NCBI RefSeq assembly: GCF_000510645.1
Contig: NZ_KI783301.1
Location: 2,146,420-2,210,419, forward strand
Length of the DNA stretch: 64,000 nt
DNA from: Thermicanus aegyptius DSM 12793
Lineage (GTDB): Bacteria; Bacillota; Bacilli; Thermicanales; Thermicanaceae
Direction: 5' to 3'
Shown here: positions 25,092 through 62,690 of the stretch, piece after piece
How the letters are laid out: each line of letters opens with the position of its first letter
How positions within the stretch are numbered: position 1 is the stretch's first letter
The notes under the pieces: model-generated
Seen by the model: the letters and a program-made list of their open reading frames with translations, nothing else
Database searches by the model: none
What the model was told of the DNA's origin: nothing
Program-made: the position numbers and the translations under genes

Positions 25092-26351
25092 TTATATCTT
25101 TAATCCTTTTCTTGGCTTTTCTTCTGCAACATCGATCTTTTCCAGATTGTCCAATTCTTTTTCCAATTCGCCCACCGGCTTTGCTTCTTTCACAATATCC
25201 TCAGGTATTACCTCTCCAAGTTTTACCGATTGCGAGTGCGTCATTGCAACCGTTGCTCCAGTGCCTGGTTGATAAAGTGCTACCGCTTTTGTAGTCCCAT
25301 GATATGCCATTGTTGCCGATGCCGCCAGCCAATTCGGCATTCTCCCGGATAGTATGACTTTCGATCCCATTGGCAATTCCGGCGGAAAAGCATTATCTAA
25401 GTCCTTGGGGTTTAGCGGCTCGGATGGATCGTTTTGTTCAACCTGCACGATATGCCAATCTTTATTCTTTAGCACTGTCCATTTGAGATTTTCTCCACCC
25501 CCCATTCCACTCGGTTTTTTCATCCCGATTGGAACGTATCCGTCCGGTGAGTTTACCGATACCGAATTCGGGTGTAGTTCGTGCGTGATAGAAGCCACAA
25601 GCCACGCAGGTGCCGCTCCATTGATTTTTATGTGCATTCCTTCCGGAACAGGCTTGTTATGCATGATCTGTGATAATTTAACGAGATCTTCTCCCGTCCA
25701 TACGATTTGCTCCACTTCTTTTCCGTTTGGTAACGTCCTTTTTATAGGTTTTTTCCCCAATTCATCCGCCAGCTTTGAGATTTCCAAAACATTTTCCATT
25801 TTTTTGTCCTCCTTTAACTCATTTTCTTTTAATTTAGATTCTGGATTTATCGCCTTAAAGAATGCAACTGCGGATGCAAGAGCCTTGTCTGCGGGATTGA
25901 ATTGGTCTAACCCATTTAATCCTGAGTATTTAATTCGGTTGATATGCGGGTCGATCCCATTTTGGCGCAAGATAACTGATACACTGTTAAGTGAGATAGG
26001 GTGTGGTTTATACTGTTTGCGGTTTTCCGGATCGTCCTGTATTACCTGATCAAATAACCTTTCTACGTCAATAATTCCCTTGTCTACTACATGGATCGAA
26101 TTTTTCATATGCTTCATATAAAATTTCCAGAAATCGTCTCTCATCTCCCTTCTTGTTTTGTATTCCCTTAATTCTCCTAAAACCGGTAAGACTGTTTCTC
26201 TTACTCTTCTGTTTTCTATTTGATCTTTTTCGGCGATTCCGGCAAAACGATCTATTTCTTCGCCTTCTTCGTTTAATACAACGGCTCCAACCGCATAAAC
26301 CTCACCATAAGGCCCGTCTGATTCAACATTAAATGAAAGTATCTTTGCCAT
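25092..26351 (-). CDS. Degenerate DEDD exonuclease-like domain fused to tandem Csx3-like domains, with shared tail (tagged protein 3), 419 aa
   Basis: Residues 1-170 resemble DnaQ-type 3'-5' exonucleases (ILSFNVESDGPYGEVYAVGA). The first catalytic Asp is Asn8 and the usual final HNPxDD motif reads FNPADK, so activity is doubtful. Residues 217-280 and 290-390 are two Csx3-like domains. The second has VILSGRMPNWLAASATMAYH and QPGTGATVAMTHSQSVKLGE, closely matching the ISGRxPIWL...YDPxxGAVVVxSHS pattern of Csx3/Crn3 ring nucleases that degrade cyclic tetra-adenylate. The Asp of YDP is Gln here. The C-terminus LEKELDNLEKIDVAEEK ends in KGLKI, as in its neighbours. An internal ribosome binding site precedes Met185. 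A hammerhead ribozyme lies in the leader. Confidence 0.75.
   Translation of the reverse strand: MAKILSFNVESDGPYGEVYAVGAVVLNEEGEEIDRFAGIAEKDQIENRRVRETVLPVLGELREYKTRREMRDDFWKFYMKHMKNSIHVVDKGIIDVERLFDQVIQDDPENRKQYKPHPISLNSVSVILRQNGIDPHINRIKYSGLNGLDQFNPADKALASAVAFFKAINPESKLKENELKEDKKMENVLEISKLADELGKKPIKRTLPNGKEVEQIVWTGEDLVKLSQIMHNKPVPEGMHIKINGAAPAWLVASITHELHPNSVSVNSPDGYVPIGMKKPSGMGGGENLKWTVLKNKDWHIVQVEQNDPSEPLNPKDLDNAFPPELPMGSKVILSGRMPNWLAASATMAYHGTTKAVALYQPGTGATVAMTHSQSVKLGEVIPEDIVKEAKPVGELEKELDNLEKIDVAEEKPRKGLKI
25797..25817 (-). promoter_or_regulatory. Internal ribosome binding site and start (Met185) in the Csx3-like gene
   Basis: On the minus strand AAAGGAGGACAAAAAAATGG, a textbook site for this element, lies inside the reading frame and would start a 235-aa protein holding both Csx3-like domains and the tail. 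It suggests two ancestral genes fused, or that two products are made. Confidence 0.6.
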
Positions 26352-38561: not shown

Positions 38562-39674
38562 TTAAGGCTGAAGGAAATTTGCCGCCAGATTCGCAACCAA
38601 AGCATAGTTGATTTCCTCAAGGTTGGCTATGGCATACGGTTCGAGATAATTATATGTGGAGGAACCGAGTTCTTTCGAGAATATGGCAAGCACCTTATAT
38701 ATACTTTCAGGCGTGGCATCGGCATTAAGATTTACTTTTTCTATTTCCTTCTGATGTTCGGAAAGAGCGGTAAGAAGGTCTAGGCTAATACCCTTGTTGT
38801 GAATAATTACGCCCAAGAAAAGGTTTATTGTTTCCCGGTTTGTGATCGGTTTTTTTCCGAATTCCGATACTTCGCTTTGGAGAAATTTGCTTTTGTCGAT
38901 TATGCCCAATTCCCTCAGTTTAAGCAACCCTTTAAATTTTGGGTCTGGTTCGCCGTTTTTCTTTTCTTTCTCCTTGATTTTGGAGACAATTAATGCTTTT
39001 AAGTTTTCGGCTTCCTCTTTCGTTAGAGACTTCGCTTCCGTCCTGTGCTTGTACTGAGGAAGGAATACTTCCACAAAATCTTCCGCAAACATCTCGACGG
39101 GCCGCTTCCCCCATATGGGATCGGTATCGGAGTAATGGGATACGCCTCTAAAGTTTTTATACCAGGCATAATCATTTTGGTCGAAATAATAAAAATAAAT
39201 AAGGTGCCCCAATTCGTGGGGAACCGTCCTTTGAACCGGCGAGTTAACAAGGCCCCATGCGCCAAGCACCACGGAATTGTAGGGGGAATCGGGTCCTCCC
39301 CAAACCGTATAAGCGCTTGCAGAACGGAATTTTGCGTTTGTTGCATAAAAGGCATACCGCTTGCCTCCAAAAAGCTGGTTTATGTCTATGCCGCTTTCTT
39401 CTAATTTCTGGAATATGTTGCGCAAAGCGGATTCGACTTCGGTTACAGGCAAGTTTTGACCTTTACCTATATCTTTGTATTTTTCCAGAATCTGTTTTGT
39501 CCATTGTGGAAGTTCGTTAAATGCAATTTGCTTTACGACAAATCCGGATACTTTTGTTTCTTTTTCTTCGGCAACAGCGGATATGTTGAAGGTGTTCGCT
39601 ATTGCAACGGCAAAAAGAAAGAGGAAAAGGAAAATTTTAAATCTGTTTTTAAACAATTTTAACACCAGCCGCAA
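38562..39674 (-). CDS. Secreted zincin metalloprotease-like protein, 370 aa
   Basis: A signal peptide (KIFLFLFLFAVAIANTF) is followed by a domain with the zinc-binding HELGHLIYFYYF motif and a downstream EMFAEDFVEVF glutamate, the pattern of gluzincins of the anthrax lethal-factor-like group. The C-terminal 150 residues are helical. The substrate is unknown; it may act on the cell envelope. The start is uncertain (TTG at 39674 or GTG at 39665) because it overlaps the end of the upstream gene by 26 nt. Confidence 0.75.
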   Translation of the reverse strand: MRLVLKLFKNRFKIFLFLFLFAVAIANTFNISAVAEEKETKVSGFVVKQIAFNELPQWTKQILEKYKDIGKGQNLPVTEVESALRNIFQKLEESGIDINQLFGGKRYAFYATNAKFRSASAYTVWGGPDSPYNSVVLGAWGLVNSPVQRTVPHELGHLIYFYYFDQNDYAWYKNFRGVSHYSDTDPIWGKRPVEMFAEDFVEVFLPQYKHRTEAKSLTKEEAENLKALIVSKIKEKEKKNGEPDPKFKGLLKLRELGIIDKSKFLQSEVSEFGKKPITNRETINLFLGVIIHNKGISLDLLTALSEHQKEIEKVNLNADATPESIYKVLAIFSKELGSSTYNYLEPYAIANLEEINYALVANLAANFLQP

Positions 39675-40104
39675 TAAATAAAATAACCAGGATGGCCGAT
39701 ACCCCTATGATCCGGTCGGCTAATGTTCCGGTACGTATACCGATTACTTTAAATCTTTTCTTATACGGCCATAAAAGCGGTACGCCGGATGGTGTGAGCA
39801 CGTCCCCCGCGATATGAACCCCAATTCCTACCGCCAGTCCATAGAAAAATGGGTACGAATAGTATCCCGCAAAAAGGAATAAGAGCATGAATGCCAGGCT
39901 ATGCGTGATGCCGCGATGCCCGAAAAGACTGATCAAAAAAGAGATAAACGGCATTTTCTTTCCTATAGTGCTTCCCGTGTGATCAATGTCCGGGAGAAGA
40001 GATCCTAAAATAACGGCTGATGATACTTCTATGGGAAGATGTAAATATCGGTTAAGAAGAACCGCTGTTAGAGTCCCTGTCGCAAGGTGCGTGAATCCGG
40101 TCAT
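39649..40104 (-). CDS. ydjM-like: YdjM-type membrane-bound metal-dependent hydrolase, 151 aa
   Basis: The family pattern is clear: MTGFTHLATG at the start, GSLLPDIDHTGS, FGHRGITHS, GIGVHIAGDVLTPSGVPLLWP. Conserved His and Asp residues are the likely metal ligands, and about four hydrophobic segments place it in the membrane. ATG at 40104 follows AGGAAGATTTTG. Substrate and role are not established for the family. Confidence 0.85.
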   Translation of the reverse strand: MTGFTHLATGTLTAVLLNRYLHLPIEVSSAVILGSLLPDIDHTGSTIGKKMPFISFLISLFGHRGITHSLAFMLLFLFAGYYSYPFFYGLAVGIGVHIAGDVLTPSGVPLLWPYKKRFKVIGIRTGTLADRIIGVSAILVILFIAAGVKIV

Positions 40105-40178
40105 CAAAATCTTCCTTTCTGTTTTTTTCTGTTTTTTTTTATCCAAAAGTTTTGTTAAAAGGCAAAAAACAATTTGGT

Positions 40179-40907
40179 TTAAATTGCTTTCGTTCTTTCT
40201 TCTTTGAACTTTGCTAAATTTCGAACTGGATCTCTCAGATCCATGTCTGTTATGACGCGTACTTTTATTCCTCCCCCCAGAAACATTTGAAGTGGTTTTA
40301 AGTGAATCAGGGATTCTGCGATGATGATCAATCTTTCCCCGGGTGGATTGTGTTTTAACGTAAAAAGGATGTCTGTTATATCCCCTCTCACCACATAGAC
40401 AAAATAAACATGATTCGCTTCGACCATCCCGGTATAAGGGTCCGGGGCTGGAAGGACTTTGGATGGATGGGTTTGGTTGAAATAACTGTAAAACTGGAAG
40501 AAGACCAGCTTTTTTAAAACGTCTTCCGTTTTATATCTCAGCCAGTAGTTTTCATCGTATTGGATTCCAATGGCCGGGGCCGCCGCCGGTCCCAGGGTGT
40601 ATACAGGGATGGCTTTCTCTTCCTCCCCGTCCCGGATGATTTCGTGACGGATGAGTTTTTTGGATTTAACCATGTTCTTAAGTTTCATCTGCACCAATCT
40701 TTTATTCTGGGTCGGGAAAAAGATTCGTCTCAGTTGTCTTGTCCCAATCAGACCCAGCGAAGAGATGGCACGAAGCATTTCGATTTCCCTTTCGGATTCC
40801 AAAGTTTCATAGGTTCTATATTTCACGTTTGATCGTAAGATCGTCCATTTTAAATCCCAAGTATGCCCTTCCAGCGAAAAAGGGCTGATGGTTTGCGTCT
40901 CCAACAA
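40179..40907 (-). CDS. Replication-relaxation-family winged-helix protein, possible replication initiator, 242 aa
   Basis: An N-terminal winged helix (EIEMLRAISSLGLIGTRQLR, then a region ending in RHEIIRDGEE) is followed by a mixed domain, as in replication-relaxation proteins of conjugative elements. The start is probably TTG at 40907 behind AAGAGGTGATAGTC. A short leader ORF with a much better ribosome binding site ends 20 nt upstream, and an antisense transcript covers that leader. This control layout resembles plasmid copy-number systems, which is why I suggest a replication role. Confidence 0.6.
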   Translation of the reverse strand: MLETQTISPFSLEGHTWDLKWTILRSNVKYRTYETLESEREIEMLRAISSLGLIGTRQLRRIFFPTQNKRLVQMKLKNMVKSKKLIRHEIIRDGEEEKAIPVYTLGPAAAPAIGIQYDENYWLRYKTEDVLKKLVFFQFYSYFNQTHPSKVLPAPDPYTGMVEANHVYFVYVVRGDITDILFTLKHNPPGERLIIIAESLIHLKPLQMFLGGGIKVRVITDMDLRDPVRNLAKFKEERTKAI

Positions 40908-40926
40908 GACTATCACCTCTTTTTTT

Positions 40927-41025
40927 TTAAAAAAATGCAAATGAAAGACGTTTAGAATACTTTTTCTGGGTTTTTTGGTAAAAAAGTATTGACAGAGATA
41001 TATAATCCGAGTATACTAAAGACAT
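40927..41025 (-). CDS. Possible leader peptide, 32 aa
   Basis: ATG at 41025 follows AAAAAAGGAGGTTT. The peptide begins MSLVYSDYISLSILF and stops shortly before the ribosome binding site of the replication-relaxation gene, so its translation could open that site. Its ribosome binding site is the target of the antisense RNA. Confidence 0.4.
   Translation of the reverse strand: MSLVYSDYISLSILFYQKTQKKYSKRLSFAFF
40989..41017 (+). promoter_or_regulatory. Consensus promoter of a short antisense RNA
   Basis: TTGACA (40989-40994), a 17-nt spacer and TATACT (41012-41017) on the plus strand form a near-perfect sigma-A promoter. No plus-strand gene follows, only a terminator 55 nt downstream. Confidence 0.75.
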
Positions 41026-41081
41026 AAACCTCCTTTTTTCCCCGCCTGAGTTGGTACGCACGGCTCGGCGGGGTTTTTATT
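41024..41081 (+). ncRNA. Candidate antisense small RNA, about 55-60 nt
   Basis: From the predicted start near 41024 the transcript reads ACATAAACCTCCTTTTTTCC and ends in a strong hairpin CCCCGCC...GGCGGGG (41040-41073) followed by TTTTTATTTTTTTT. It is fully complementary to the leader of the replication-relaxation gene, including the AAAAGGAGG of the leader peptide. The promoter-RNA-terminator unit looks like the countertranscribed RNAs that control plasmid replication. Confidence 0.65.
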
Positions 41082-41094
41082 TTTTTTATTTTTT

Positions 41095-41436
41095 TTAGAG
41101 CTCTCTTTCCAAATATTCGCGTATTTCCTGCCACTCACTTTCTGAGACGGGCACTTCGTAGATCATTTTTTCCGTCTCGAATGTTAAAAGTTCTTTGTCG
41201 AAGTCAATATACGTATATTTGACTATTTCTGTATATTGAAGCATTTCTGTATATTGAAGCGGTGTATCGAGATTTCTAAACGCGATTTGCCTTGCTTTGG
41301 TGCTTCGTAAAATTTGTGCCTGCTCATACGAAAAACGGGCAAGCACAAAGTCCGTTAACATCTCAACGGTGATTTTGAATTGATTGTCTTTTACCACAAA
41401 ATTTATTGTGTGAAGCCCTCTCGTGAGTGTATACAC
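41095..41436 (-). CDS. Hypothetical protein, 113 aa
   Basis: GTG at 41436 follows GGGGAG. The middle has two imperfect repeats (LQYTEM and LQYTEI) encoded by a perfect 17-bp direct repeat at about 41226-41260. The rest is beta-rich then helical. No family is recognised. Confidence 0.5.
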   Translation of the reverse strand: MYTLTRGLHTINFVVKDNQFKITVEMLTDFVLARFSYEQAQILRSTKARQIAFRNLDTPLQYTEMLQYTEIVKYTYIDFDKELLTFETEKMIYEVPVSESEWQEIREYLEREL

Positions 41437-41459
41437 ATTATCTCCCCTCCCCCTGTTAT

Positions 41460-42065
41460 TTACCTCGGTAATAGACCGCCTACGTGATGGCGGCTGATAT
41501 CCACCAAAACTCCGTTTGCCAACGCAAATGTTATTGCGGCCAAAGTGTACGAATCCTGGATTTTGCCTGTTAAGATGTCGCTTAAAATCTCCTCGGTACT
41601 GTTAAGTTCGACCTTTGCGATACCTTCTTTTTCATCCCCCTTAAAATCGTCACCGTTAAAGTTGGCCATAAATATTCCAACTTTACCGCTAAAAATTCCT
41701 GTATCTGGATATACATAGCCAAGCAAAGTGCAGGAATACGGCATTTTCCCTACTTCACTTCTTCCGCAATTTCCCGAATTGCCGCTTCTTTCTCCGATTC
41801 TTCGTTTTTTTTTTACAAAACCTCGCGGGATCTCTTTGGAGAATTCGCCAATTGGATAACGAAAAATTTTAATGGTTATGATCTTGTCTTCTACAAACCC
41901 AAGCGTAGCAACGCCTACTAAGCCGGAAGGTGTTTTTTGGGTGTGTTCTACTGAAACATAGCTCCCTATCCTCCCATCAGGAAACTTAACTTGATCCTTG
42001 TTTAGCGTCAGGTATTTGTCTTTATACACAATCTCTCGGCTTAACCTGGTTATAATTCGTTCCAT
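41460..42065 (-). pseudogene. Nudix hydrolase (ADP-ribose pyrophosphatase-like) with scrambled Nudix box, 201 codons
   Basis: The flanks are a clear ADP-ribose pyrophosphatase: ITIKIFRYPIGEFSKEIPRGF before the box and LLGYVYPDTGIFSGKV after it. Between them the frame reads RRIGERSGNSGNCGRSEV instead of a Nudix box. Shifting by one at the A10 run (41811-41820 region) gives EESEKEAAIREIAEEV, a proper box. The frame is restored by an apparent five-nt duplication (GAAGTGAAGT) near 41754. The two changes sum to six nt, so the gene stays open but the catalytic Glu residues are lost. Confidence 0.8.
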
Positions 42066-42143
42066 TAGAACCCTCCATTGTTCCTGCGCGGCTCCCTCTT
42101 GCCTTTTGCAACAAGAGGGAGGTTTCCGGCAGGGTTTATCTTT

Positions 42144-42962
42144 TTAGATAATTCGTACGATCCTTCCCCGAATCTGTTCTTTCTTCGGGTCAACGTGAAG
42201 CACTCTCATCAGTACCTTATCCCCTTTTTTCACGTTCTGGTATCGCGGATGGGGGCATAAGGCATCAACATTCGGCTCAAGGTTAACAAAGACGCCGTAC
42301 TCTCGTACACCGGATACTTTGCCCACATATTCCCCCCGCTCCTGATAACGCTTCGTGCATTCCGGCCACGGGTTTTTCTTGGCTTGTTTCGCGCTTACTT
42401 TTACCTTCTTGTTCTCTTTGTCCAACTCGACGACTTTTACGTGCAGGTGGTCTCCTACTTTCACTTTTTCCTCAAGGTCGTCGATCCAGCCGTAATCTAC
42501 TTCCTCAATGGGGATCTTCACCATAATCCCCCCAATATCCGCCCTAACTTCAATCGGGGTAACTTCCCGTACCACCGCAATGATGACAGCCCCTTCCTCC
42601 AGCCGGTTCCATGTAAGTCCTGCCATGTGTTCCAAAGCATCTTTACGGGAGGCGACAAAGGTTTCTCCTTCCCGGTCGTAGCTTACAACCTTAAAAACTA
42701 CGTCTTGTCCGGTGAGCTTTCTTAGTTGCCTGATGTCTTCTACTCCCGAAAAATCAATCGGGATGACACCCCGAATGTGACCAAATTGCACGATGGCGCA
42801 TACTTTGTTTTGCAAGGTTTCAATTCCGGTGACGGTTCCTTGCAAGATGAGTTTGTTCTGAAAAGCACTGTAGATTTCTTTCCAATCCTTATCGTAAGTC
42901 TCCTCTTCGATTTTTGTCGGGTTAAAACCCTCGATTAAGATTCCGCGGATTTCTTCCATCAT
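42144..42962 (-). CDS. S1-domain RNA-binding protein (ribosomal protein S1-like), 272 aa
   Basis: Three OB-fold repeats are visible. The first (LQGTVTGIETLQNKVCAIVQ) is divergent. The second (EEGAVIIAVVREVTPIEVRA) and third (RGEYVGKVSGVREYGVFVNL) are clear S1 motifs. S1 proteins bind mRNA and can assist translation initiation. The element has many mRNAs with structured leaders, so an accessory S1 could matter. Ribosome binding site: AAAAGGAGAGTGTTTC. Confidence 0.85.
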   Translation of the reverse strand: MMEEIRGILIEGFNPTKIEEETYDKDWKEIYSAFQNKLILQGTVTGIETLQNKVCAIVQFGHIRGVIPIDFSGVEDIRQLRKLTGQDVVFKVVSYDREGETFVASRKDALEHMAGLTWNRLEEGAVIIAVVREVTPIEVRADIGGIMVKIPIEEVDYGWIDDLEEKVKVGDHLHVKVVELDKENKKVKVSAKQAKKNPWPECTKRYQERGEYVGKVSGVREYGVFVNLEPNVDALCPHPRYQNVKKGDKVLMRVLHVDPKKEQIRGRIVRII

Positions 42963-42998: not shown

Positions 42999-44795
42999 TT
43001 AAAAGAAATCATCATCGTCATCGGGCACATAAGCCCTTTTTTCTTCTTCCGGAGGTTTTTCTTCCGGTTCATCTTCAAGGCTGGGGGGAGAGAAATCCTC
43101 CTCGTTTGATGTGAAGAGTTCCCCCTGAACGGAATGTGTTTCTTTGTCTTTGTGCCGGAAGGTTATCTTTTTGGGCTTGTCTTCTTCAAGCGCCTCTAAG
43201 GCTTCTAAGGCTTCGATTCCCAGTGTTTTTTGCGGCGTTTTTTGCGTTTCTTCGGCTTTATCGTTTGTTACGGTTTCAGCAGAGATTTTGTTTGCCGTGC
43301 TTTCTAAAGCACTTTCATTTGCGGGTCTTGTTGTTTCATTTTCTTGTTGTTCTTGTTGTTCTTGCTGTCTTTCTATTGGCTCGTGTTTTTTTCTCTCACC
43401 TTCTTTCTCTTTTTTCTTCCAGAAATTTAATCTGTAGAATATAAATTTGGATTTGCTTTCGTTTTTCTCCCACTCCCTCCTTTCCTTCCAGTCTTTCGGG
43501 ACGAAATTTCCTTTGCCGATTCCTGGTGTTTGCTGGACACCGTTTTTCATGAGTTTGTGGATGAAGTGAAAGCGCGGAAGAGAGTACATGATTTGCGAAT
43601 AGTAGTATCGATATTCTTCGATTTCTACGTCCTGGTATTTTTCGGGCAGTAAATTCGGGATAAAGATTCTGTTGGCATACGTTCCTCGCCGTTCGATCAT
43701 TTGCCTTTTTCCGAGTTCTTCCGCGAATTCTTTGGCGTCTTCCGCAGTTACTCCACCAAAGACGATTTTGTTGCGGCACCCGTTTAGGATTGAACGCTTG
43801 ATCGCTCTCCCGCTCATTTTTCCACTTTCAACTTCGAGTTGAGCAAGGGATTGTGTGGCAAAGATTCCGGCTACGCGATATTCCGCCGCGATACTCAGGA
43901 ATCGCTCAAAATCCGGGTTAATATACCTGGATAGTTCGTCCACGATGAGAAAATGAGGTATGCGCGTGCGCTCTGTGCCTGGTCTCCGAAATGTCCCGCT
44001 CTGGAGGTGCATGACGACGAATTGACCAAAAGCGTCTCCGCTTGTGCCGAGTTCCCCTAAAGCGGTGTTGACGGCAAGAATCCCTCCTTTTAAAAAATGT
44101 TCATCGATGTTCAGGCTGTCTTTTCCGCCCATGATCGCTTTCAGGTTTGTGTTTGATGTGAGGTTTTCTAATTGTGCACGCAACCCGATTGCGAATTGGC
44201 GGTATTTATCCCTCAAAGAGCCTAAAAGTTCAGACTCAAAAAAACGAACGAGGTCTGTAGCCCCGTCACGTGCTTTTAGTTCTTTTACTTTTTTCTCGAG
44301 AAGTTCCGGGTCACGCAGTGTTTCTACAACGTCGATCAGGTCAATGTTGTCACCGTATAGCGTCTTGAGGAGCTTTGTTGTATTCCTTGCCGCAAGCTCC
44401 TGAACCGTCGCAAAGAAAGGGTCCTGCTTCCCAAAGAGACTCTTTAACACAGACACCGTCGCTTCCGCCACAGTGTCCATGTCCCCTTTCATCGGGTTGA
44501 AAGTGTCGCTTTTGTAGTCAGGGTCATAACCTCTTACGATGGCATATTCACGGTTTCTCGCGGGATCGATATGGACGAACGGCAGTTCCATCGCTTCTGC
44601 CATCTCCCGTACCATGAAGGCCATATCTCCCTTGGGTTCGATAACAGATAATCCCAACTGCACTCCCCGTTTTTTCATGAGGAGTAATTGATAGATGATC
44701 GGCTTTAGTAGTGTTGCCGTCTTTCCGGAACGAATCGGCCCCACAATGAGCATGTTTGTAAAAAGGTCATCCCCTTTTAGCTTTATGGCTTCTAT
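42999..44795 (-). CDS. Second TraG/VirD4-like coupling ATPase with acidic/Gln-rich tail, about 598 aa, non-AUG start
   Basis: The ATPase core has Walker A IVGPIRSGKT, Walker B FLIVDELSRYI, and the coupling-protein ATQSLAQLEVESG. There is no transmembrane segment of its own; the next upstream gene encodes a four-helix membrane protein that may anchor it. Residues beyond 440 form a basic then Gln/Glu-rich disordered tail ending DDDDDFF. The first ATG lies inside the conserved GDDLFTN region just before the P-loop and has no ribosome binding site. Upstream in frame only ATA codons (44795, 44786) follow AAAGGGGGTGG, so a non-AUG start is probable. Confidence 0.85.
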   Translation of the reverse strand: MEAIKLKGDDLFTNMLIVGPIRSGKTATLLKPIIYQLLLMKKRGVQLGLSVIEPKGDMAFMVREMAEAMELPFVHIDPARNREYAIVRGYDPDYKSDTFNPMKGDMDTVAEATVSVLKSLFGKQDPFFATVQELAARNTTKLLKTLYGDNIDLIDVVETLRDPELLEKKVKELKARDGATDLVRFFESELLGSLRDKYRQFAIGLRAQLENLTSNTNLKAIMGGKDSLNIDEHFLKGGILAVNTALGELGTSGDAFGQFVVMHLQSGTFRRPGTERTRIPHFLIVDELSRYINPDFERFLSIAAEYRVAGIFATQSLAQLEVESGKMSGRAIKRSILNGCRNKIVFGGVTAEDAKEFAEELGKRQMIERRGTYANRIFIPNLLPEKYQDVEIEEYRYYYSQIMYSLPRFHFIHKLMKNGVQQTPGIGKGNFVPKDWKERREWEKNESKSKFIFYRLNFWKKKEKEGERKKHEPIERQQEQQEQQENETTRPANESALESTANKISAETVTNDKAEETQKTPQKTLGIEALEALEALEEDKPKKITFRHKDKETHSVQGELFTSNEEDFSPPSLEDEPEEKPPEEEKRAYVPDDDDDFF

Positions 44796-50297: not shown

Positions 50298-50735
50298 CTA
50301 TTTCCGCTCCACAAATTTTTGAATCTCTTCTACACTTGCCCCTGCACCAACGATCCGCCCAATCTCAACCTTCCTGCCGTTTACATCTTTCATATGGACA
50401 AGAACAGGGACTTTTTCAACCTTGAAGAAAGAGAAAACATCTCTTCCCCCTTCTTGCTCACCTTCTACTGCATAGATAGGCAGGGCATTCGGTGTTTTGG
50501 TGTACTGATCCAGCACCTTTGCCATCTCATGACAATATGGGCAGCGATCAAGGTAAAGAAACAAAAGATATTCGGATTCTTTTTGATTCTCGAACTCAGT
50601 GATCGCATTCTTGCCGTTAAGGTTTGTTGCGAAAGTAAAATCCCCTTCACCTTTCGGCGGAGAAGAGGAACACGCCGCAAGAATAAAGATCAATCCCACC
50701 AACAAAAGATACAAAAGATATTTTATTTTTCGCAT
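50298..50735 (-). CDS. Thioredoxin-like lipoprotein, 145 aa
   Basis: A lipoprotein signal with lipobox LAACSSS gives membrane anchoring outside the cell. The mature domain has a CPYC redox motif (LYLDRCPYCHEMA) and the cis-proline region KVEKVPVLVHM, so it is a thioredoxin-like protein. It may help disulfide chemistry of exported pilus or transfer proteins. It is the first gene of the parM operon, an unusual pairing. Confidence 0.85.
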   Translation of the reverse strand: MRKIKYLLYLLLVGLIFILAACSSSPPKGEGDFTFATNLNGKNAITEFENQKESEYLLFLYLDRCPYCHEMAKVLDQYTKTPNALPIYAVEGEQEGGRDVFSFFKVEKVPVLVHMKDVNGRKVEIGRIVGAGASVEEIQKFVERK

Positions 50736-50796
50736 ACGATCTTTCCTCCTTGATTTTTACTTTCTAACCTAGAAAAACGAAGAGAAAAACAAAAAA

Positions 50797-50910
50797 GCCC
50801 GCTTCGCTTCAACGCAAAGCAGGCCATTAAACTCCATCTGTTAAAAATGGGCAGGCTTCGCCCATCGAATTGTCAAGTATTATTTTAGCAGGTTTTTGTG
50901 CAAATGACAA
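50797..50910 (-). promoter_or_regulatory. Promoter and tandem terminator-like hairpins ahead of the parM operon
   Basis: On the minus strand TTGTCA (50905-50910), 17 nt, TAAAAT (50882-50887) forms a good promoter. Its transcript at once meets ATGGGC-GAAGCCT-GCCCAT-TTTT (about 50845-50865) and then GCCTGCTT...AAGCGGGC-TTTTTT (about 50795-50825), two terminator-like hairpins before the first gene. The layout parallels leaders L1-L4, though the sequences differ. Confidence 0.7.
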
Positions 50911-61415: not shown

Positions 61416-62435
61416 TCAAATCACCAATTTGTAAAACCAGCTCTGATGGAATACCTTTTGACATTTTGCCGGATCGGCATGTTGCGTCACACGCTTGTTG
61501 GCAAAATCAAAGCTGTGCAGGCTAAGTTTCCCCTTCGTTGTCCCACCCGTCCGGTACAGGTTGCCTTCGTACCAGACAACGGTGTTTTTCCTGAACCCAC
61601 ACGCCACCGATTCTCCATAGGGCTTCCTTATGCCCCCTTTCTCCGGCTCCAGCCGGTGCAACTGCCTGCGTGCAATCTCCGGCCTCCGCCATACCCCGAA
61701 CGATGTGACTTCCGTCCGTTTGGTCCGGATCACCAGCCAACAGAGGACAAAGCCGTCAACGGCTTGAGAATAAAAGCTGTGCTCGCCTTTCTTGCCCGTC
61801 TTTGTGAGCCCAAGTGTTTCCCTCGCCTTTGCCGTTTCTTTCGCGTCAAACAGCCGCAAGTCACCTCTTCCCTCCAGGAATTGATACAGCTTCCGTTTGT
61901 TTTCCATCGTCCAGGTGAAGTACTCACGGCCCTTCACCCCTTTCAGCCTGTTACCGTCAATCCGCATATCTTCTACGGCAATTTTCGAAATTGGATAGAT
62001 AGCGAATAAGTAAGATAGAAACTGTATCCGCATGTCTACCTTTGCCTTGATCGACGGTGGAAGCCACCCTTCAGGACGTTTACGATTGGAAAAACGCTTG
62101 GGCCGTCTTCTTGTCTTGCGGAACCGCCTGGCACGGCGCATATTCCTGCGCGTTTCCATCTTGTCTTTGATCCGGTTTTTCACCACCAACATGCCAGAAA
62201 ACTGCATCTGCTCCTTTGTGGCGATTGCCACCCCGTCATAATTGGCTCCCGGATCAATTCCTAGTGCCATATCTTGTGTATGTTTGCTCGTTGGTGTGGT
62301 TAACTGAATAAAAAAGATTCCGGTTTTCGTCCACTTTTTCACAGCCGCGCCGCTTCTTAGCAGCTTTCTCGCTTTTGCAGGCGTACACGGCATAAGCGGT
62401 GTTCCATCCATGTGTACAACAGGTACTTTCCGCAC
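61416..62435 (-). CDS. isrB: IsrB-type RNA-guided nickase (HNH-less IscB relative), 339 aa
   Basis: IsrB is the ancestor-like relative of IscB and Cas9; with an omega-RNA it nicks DNA. The PLMP domain (DGTPLMPCTPAKARKLL, PLMP at residues 13-16) is followed by RuvC-I LGIDPGANYDG (Asp61), an arginine-rich bridge helix (residues 96-112), and RuvC-II IAVEDMRID (Glu155). RuvC-III HSFYSQAVDGF (Asp227) comes only 70 residues later, with no room for an HNH domain. All three catalytic acids are intact. The GTG at 62435 follows AAAAGGAGGCACGAGTACC; an ATG 27 codons upstream would lie inside the RNA. No transposase is present, so movement would rely on a TnpA in trans. Confidence 0.9.
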   Translation of the reverse strand: MRKVPVVHMDGTPLMPCTPAKARKLLRSGAAVKKWTKTGIFFIQLTTPTSKHTQDMALGIDPGANYDGVAIATKEQMQFSGMLVVKNRIKDKMETRRNMRRARRFRKTRRRPKRFSNRKRPEGWLPPSIKAKVDMRIQFLSYLFAIYPISKIAVEDMRIDGNRLKGVKGREYFTWTMENKRKLYQFLEGRGDLRLFDAKETAKARETLGLTKTGKKGEHSFYSQAVDGFVLCWLVIRTKRTEVTSFGVWRRPEIARRQLHRLEPEKGGIRKPYGESVACGFRKNTVVWYEGNLYRTGGTTKGKLSLHSFDFANKRVTQHADPAKCQKVFHQSWFYKLVI

Positions 62436-62439
62436 GGTA

Positions 62440-62690
62440 CTCGTGCCTCCTTTTGGAGTTTTGTGCCCTTCGACCATGCCTGTCAGGCTTAGATGTGCAA
62501 AAACACATCGTGGCATTCAACGATTCTGCCGCATATCCCCAGACTAGGGCGTGCAGCCGGGAGGTGCTTGGTAGCCCGTCAGGGCGTAGGCTTTCGCCTC
62601 GGTCTAGTCAACGGTTGCCTTGGTATCGTCATCCCAAGCTCACGCCTTCAGGCGTGGGGTCGTTGACCCTCCTTATCTCTTGGAATCAAA
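62440..62690 (-). ncRNA. Omega-RNA (HEARO RNA) of the IsrB element
   Basis: The segment between the terminator at 62.7 kb and the isrB start is densely structured on the minus strand. It has ACGCC-TGAA-GGCGT, a long-range GTCAACG/CGTTGAC pairing (about 62668 and 62610), ACTAGACC followed by an AGGC-GAAA-GCCT hairpin, and a GCCCTGACGGGC stem. This matches the position and style of HEARO RNAs, which are encoded just upstream of IscB/IsrB. The guide would be the roughly 16 nt upstream of the scaffold (about 62670-62690). Confidence 0.78.

Follow-up and report, generated by a model that had tools for sequence, protein, structure and literature searches.

What is made, and for what, from a promoter that is followed within a short distance by a terminator, with no gene between them, on the strand opposite to an operon? 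Such a pair lies on the + strand of the 64-kb window (the whole stretch of DNA analysed here, placed within a single 3.66-Mb contig), ahead of a gene of the Replic_Relax family (Table 1). The sequence-only reading had taken it for an antisense RNA of the plasmid copy-number type. Our tentative answer is that a private, cis-acting antisense RNA lowers the translation of the Replic_Relax gene, a DNA-transfer accessory gene of an integrated conjugative element (ICE). This is the most likely of the explanations considered, and its nearest competitor is that the promoter and terminator are remains of a decaying insert.

Table 1 Features of the locus (positions in the window)
Feature	Positions	Strand	Remarks
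Replic_Relax-family gene	40179–40907	−	TTG start; predicted winged helix and nuclease-like part
Shine-Dalgarno AAGAGGTG of the Replic_Relax gene	40914–40921	−	predicted to pair with leader segment UAUAUCUCU
Insert of about 1.2 kb between S1 and Replic_Relax genes	40925–42143	.	missing from relatives; approximate boundaries
Leader ORF, 32 codons, MSLVYSDYISLSILFYQKTQKKYSKRLSFAFF	40927–41025	−	putative coding
Perfect 10-bp inverted repeat AATACTTTTT...AAAAAGTATT	40956–40990	.	abuts the −35 box
Antisense RNA promoter TTGACA-17-TATACT	40989–41017	+	
Predicted antisense RNA, about 62 nt	41024–41085	+	start inferred 6–7 nt past the −10 box
Predicted unpaired 5′ tail AUAAACCUCCUUUUUU	41024–41039	+	includes ACCUCCUUU, complement of a perfect Shine-Dalgarno
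Shine-Dalgarno AAAAAAGGAGG of the leader ORF	41029–41039	−	faces the RNA tail; spacing to the leader ATG 3 nt
Terminator hairpin CCCCGCCUGAGUUG-GUACGCA-CGGCUCGGCGGGG	41040–41073	+	followed by U-tract 41074–41097
Orphan 113-aa ORF	41095–41436	−	within the insert
Nudix hydrolase gene	41460–42065	−	Nudix box out of frame; pseudogene
S1-domain RNA-binding protein	42144–42962	−	conserved upstream partner
VirD4/TraG-like coupling protein	42999–44753	−	upstream in conserved gene order

A predicted short RNA with its own promoter and terminator

The promoter matches the consensus at 11 of 12 positions with a 17-nt spacer, is the best one across positions 39500–42500, and has runs of T6 and A6 upstream that are reminiscent of an UP element. 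The U-tract, directly 3′ of a 34-nt terminator hairpin of −20 to −24 kcal/mol, starts 55 nt past the −10 box; thus, the near-perfect promoter and the strong terminator about 55 nt further on, both described in the sequence-only reading, are borne out, as is the absence of any gene between them. Judging from these signals, an RNA of about 62 nt is very probably made. From its putative start near 41024 it would begin with an open 5′ tail of 16 nt, followed by a 13-bp stem that carries a single bulged base, a 7-nt loop and a U-run, with a predicted folding energy of −23.7 kcal/mol (z = −3.8) that none of 200 shuffles equalled. The inverted repeat which abuts the −35 box is possibly an operator, a set of UP-like A/T tracts or a hairpin in the leader of the sense mRNA.

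Shuffled windows contained on average 0.0067 promoters of at least 11/12 with a terminator within 110 nt; in 150 window shuffles none of these had a hairpin of −15 kcal/mol or better. A scan of 384 kb of this genome, made up of the window and 320 kb from 16 other stretches, found three such promoter-terminator units, this one included, so the unit is rare but not unique, and others like it exist elsewhere in the genome. Searches for homologues of the RNA, which covered 398 genomes of the class as well as plasmids and phages, returned only A/T-run or other short chance matches, no Rfam family scored above its gathering score (chance hits only), and no homologue was found for the leader ORF.

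RNAII of plasmid pMV158 is 48 nt long, with a 17-nt A-U rich tail, an 8-bp stem with a 1-nt bulge, a 6-nt loop and a U-tail; it is encoded in the intergenic space between copG and repB, antisense to the region just upstream of the start signals of the next gene, and blocks repB translation through its tail (PMC4485353). The predicted RNA has almost the same plan, a 5′ single-stranded tail and one terminator hairpin, encoded between two genes of an operon, with a longer stem; in architecture it is close to a real plasmid antisense RNA. No sequence similarity between the two was found. The locus differs from that of pMV158 in being chromosomal, in having a leader ORF, and in having neither a recognised replication initiator nor, upstream, a recognised CopG-like repressor.

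Translation signals opposite the predicted RNA

On the − strand, AAAAAAGGAGGTTTATG opens the leader ORF, after which the Replic_Relax gene comes next. With a start near 41024, the predicted RNA, encoded on the opposite strand with its own promoter and terminator, is complementary to AAAAAAGGAGG and the AUG of this ORF and to nothing else of it; the remainder of the ORF sits beneath the antisense promoter. The earlier description of an RNA antisense to a leader peptide and its ribosome site is therefore kept for the Shine-Dalgarno and ATG and given up for the rest of the ORF; what stands is a predicted short RNA gene of its own, antisense to the point at which translation of a small ORF before the Replic_Relax gene would begin. 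The perfect Shine-Dalgarno AAAGGAGGT is enriched in the window, with 6 found against 1 expected.

The leader Shine-Dalgarno is spaced 3 nt from its ATG, versus about 6–9 nt at the best-defined sites of other genes here, which makes efficient translation of the leader doubtful. With this spacing and a chance of 7.6% for an open frame of such length, the leader peptide is plausible, although unproven. As for the next gene, its Shine-Dalgarno is predicted to be paired, with a mean unpaired value of 0.10 versus 0.35 when the leader was shuffled; values as low were reached in 11 of 200 leader shuffles (about 0.055, of borderline significance). Sequestration by the leader ORF, as predicted here, would permit the translational coupling of leader and gene that had been suggested. 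Blocking the site of the RNA did not by itself change the pairing of the Replic_Relax Shine-Dalgarno. A two-state switch, in which binding of the RNA would free an anti-Shine-Dalgarno segment, appeared when a shorter sequence was folded, vanished with longer context, and was rejected.

In the reading we favour, RNA polymerase would start near 41024 and stop after about 62 nt, and the open tail would make the initial contact, with AAAAAAGGAGGUUUAU of the operon mRNA from the other strand; the pairing would then extend into the hairpin, on the pattern described for pMV158 RNAII, and mask the start codon of the leader ORF together with its Shine-Dalgarno. In the predicted fold, UAUAUCUCU inside the leader ORF holds the Replic_Relax ribosome site; leader translation could be needed to open this site, so the gene would stay closed whenever the leader is not translated. 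Transcriptional collision, caused by the strong antisense promoter, could strengthen the repression. Promoter, terminator, complementarity and gene context are read directly from the sequence and the closed ribosome site is a prediction, whereas production of the RNA, translation of the leader, coupling and regulation are inferred.

A similar arrangement is known from FinP of F-like plasmids, which has two stem-loops and, helped by FinO, targets the activator gene traJ (PMC5415839). Like FinP, the predicted RNA lies over a ribosome site ahead of a conjugation gene, but it has one hairpin and its target is a DNA-binding accessory gene. Should the RNA prove real, a transfer gene of a Gram-positive ICE would be under an antisense RNA built on the minimal single-hairpin plan known from pMV158, and a single insertion at an operon junction would be seen to suffice for gaining such a regulator.

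An insert in the coupling-protein operon

In 34 distinct related loci, from Tepidibacillus, Kroppenstedtia, Sporosarcina, Domibacillus, Paenibacillus, Cohnella, Brevibacillus, Siminovitchia and others, the Replic_Relax gene comes after an S1-domain gene, which is itself downstream of a VirD4/TraG-like gene wherever the locus sequence reaches that far. Contig searches succeeded with the S1 alignment. A scan with one Replic_Relax protein found nothing, and the alignment of that family was too divergent for use. The S1-domain protein (42144–42962(−)) is conserved beside the VirD4-like coupling protein in Bacillales elements. The gap between the S1 and Replic_Relax genes is at most 75 nt in 30 of the 34 loci and 150–370 nt in four, one of which (L083) apparently has a small ORF; the window has 1,254 nt between the two. 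This additional DNA contains a Nudix gene with a broken frame, an orphan 113-aa ORF with no relative in the class, the phylum, plasmids or viral contigs, and the predicted RNA. The genome encodes a relative of the Nudix gene product that Pfam classes as NUDIX, and the Nudix motif reads ESEKEAAIREIAEEV in another frame. With its catalytic box out of frame, next to a ten-A run, the gene is a decayed cargo gene.

An antisense promoter of at least 11/12 was present in none of the 24 loci scanned, and no comparable antisense unit was found in the relatives. As the insert is absent from them, the RNA is probably a private acquisition. Several relatives have a terminator-like hairpin on the sense strand in the S1/Replic_Relax gap; hence this junction is perhaps a natural site for lowering the expression of the Replic_Relax gene.

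These gap hairpins were seen in L063, L064, L066, L028 and L030 (Sporosarcina or related), L065 and L017 (Cohnella-like), and L072–L074 and L080 (Paenibacillus). Their sequence differs between the groups; they possibly represent a recurrent attenuator.

The same insert lends itself to a plainer explanation, which we regard as a real possibility: the promoter and terminator came with the decaying DNA, and the RNA is made with no regulatory role, or there is transcriptional collision only, the terminator merely halting antisense transcription ahead of the orphan gene. The RNA shares an insert that is private to the element with the broken Nudix gene and thus may be decaying cargo as well; neither it nor the orphan gene has a homologue, and the leader spacing is poor. 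On the other hand, promoter and terminator are both intact and near consensus, no other + strand gene needs the terminator, and the start of the RNA falls exactly over a Shine-Dalgarno and AUG. A fuller scenario would be that the ICE gained, via insertion in the coupling-protein operon, an RNAII-like RNA which replaced the junction hairpin of the relatives, giving a FinP-like conjugation brake on the plan of a copy-control RNA. We consider it rather unlikely as a whole.

Predicted pairing in cis and in trans

Part of the tail, ACCUCCUUU, is identical to part of the 16S anti-Shine-Dalgarno as commonly written. The earlier remark that CCUCCUUU in the RNA could pair with many ribosome binding sites is true arithmetically, but any anti-Shine-Dalgarno sequence would do so. 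Among 34 start regions tested, the tail paired most strongly with the leader start in cis (−20.1 kcal/mol). Its mean pairing with the 33 others was −10.8 kcal/mol versus −7.2 ± 1.0 kcal/mol for shuffled tails, none of 200 being equal, and the excess is explained by the motif complementing a Shine-Dalgarno.

These values bear on an RNA that would act in trans, for the element or the host, by covering strong ribosome sites such as those of the MoxR-VWA pair (5677 and 4179), where the tail reached −16.9 (MoxR) and −16.1 kcal/mol (VWA). With the stronger partner in cis, a motif that is the plain complement of the perfect Shine-Dalgarno opposite, and no conservation that would indicate selection on the tail, such a role appears improbable. 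RoxS and FsrA of Bacillus subtilis are C-rich, trans-acting small RNAs with many targets (PMC8216469); the predicted RNA also has a C-rich stretch able to pair with Shine-Dalgarno sites, but it is peculiar to this element, and its partner in cis is fully complementary.

The mobile element and the Replic_Relax protein

An integrase is encoded at genome positions 2128536–2129444, and VirB4-like, VirB6-like, M23 peptidase and Tad-type ORFs, assigned by inspection, lie past the window. With the 3.66-Mb contig and these genes nearby, the element is most likely a chromosomally integrated ICE and not the autonomous replicon that a copy-number RNA would serve.

The name of the Replic_Relax gene rests on a match to the N-terminal part of Pfam PF13814 (23.2 bits, below the gathering cut-off of 25.3), so the family assignment made earlier is retained as a weak one. 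Its weak TTG start, also pointed out before, is plausibly the right one, judging from homologues that align from 5–10 residues beyond it. An AlphaFold model of the protein (24-sequence alignment, pLDDT 88) has at residues 32–118 a winged helix matching MarR-type repressors (Z 8.5, rmsd 2.2 over 73 residues, values that chance matches often reach), and its C-terminal part shows a weak match to restriction-endonuclease-like chains. The predicted winged helix fits a DNA-binding protein. Among the listed fold matches of the model no replication initiator is prominent, although the protein may still be one, and no RepB match was found in the target operon with Pfam, NCBIfam or PHROGs.

Plasmid-type control of copy number, by an antisense RNA and a leader peptide over a replication initiator, was suggested by the layout, by the anatomy shared with pMV158 RNAII and by the family name "Replication-relaxation". 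It is very improbable at a chromosomal locus with integrase and conjugation genes, where the gene is part of a virD4-S1-Replic_Relax operon, where its modelled product combines a winged helix with a nuclease-like part and matches no initiator, and where no such antisense unit was found in relatives; copy-number control is rejected on this context, and the reading as a replication gene is not supported. The name is misleading in this setting, as the gene belongs with the conjugation coupling protein. The antisense RNA of pIP501 controls replication and requires two 3′ stem-loops and loop-loop kissing for binding (PMC4485353); the predicted RNA is likewise cis-encoded on a Gram-positive mobile element, but it has a single hairpin, and no rep gene is its target.

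Least credible of all is a type I toxin-antitoxin pair with the 32-codon ORF as a small membrane toxin and the RNA as antitoxin, since, although a small ORF and a strong Shine-Dalgarno lie under a predicted antisense RNA with a strong promoter, the peptide lacks the hydrophobicity of such a toxin (GRAVY 0.06, best 19-residue mean 0.56), has no relatives and is preceded by the 3-nt spacing.

Other features were also noted. At 50735–50910(−), a 10/12 promoter and then two terminator-like hairpins precede thioredoxin-like and actin-like (Alp) genes, possibly as a leader attenuation unit or a second small RNA. The protein encoded at 61416–62516(−) is RRXRR/IscB-like (149.6 bits versus the IscB cut-off of 175, N-terminal half of the model only), and that at 25092–26351(−) has a C-terminal domain of the CRISPR-associated Csx3 family with no visible CRISPR context. 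Beside the integrase, at the presumed end of the element, are tandem paralogous ORFs, many of them ending in KKIEALLIQASI (L040 9607–18951(−); genome 2129607–2138951).
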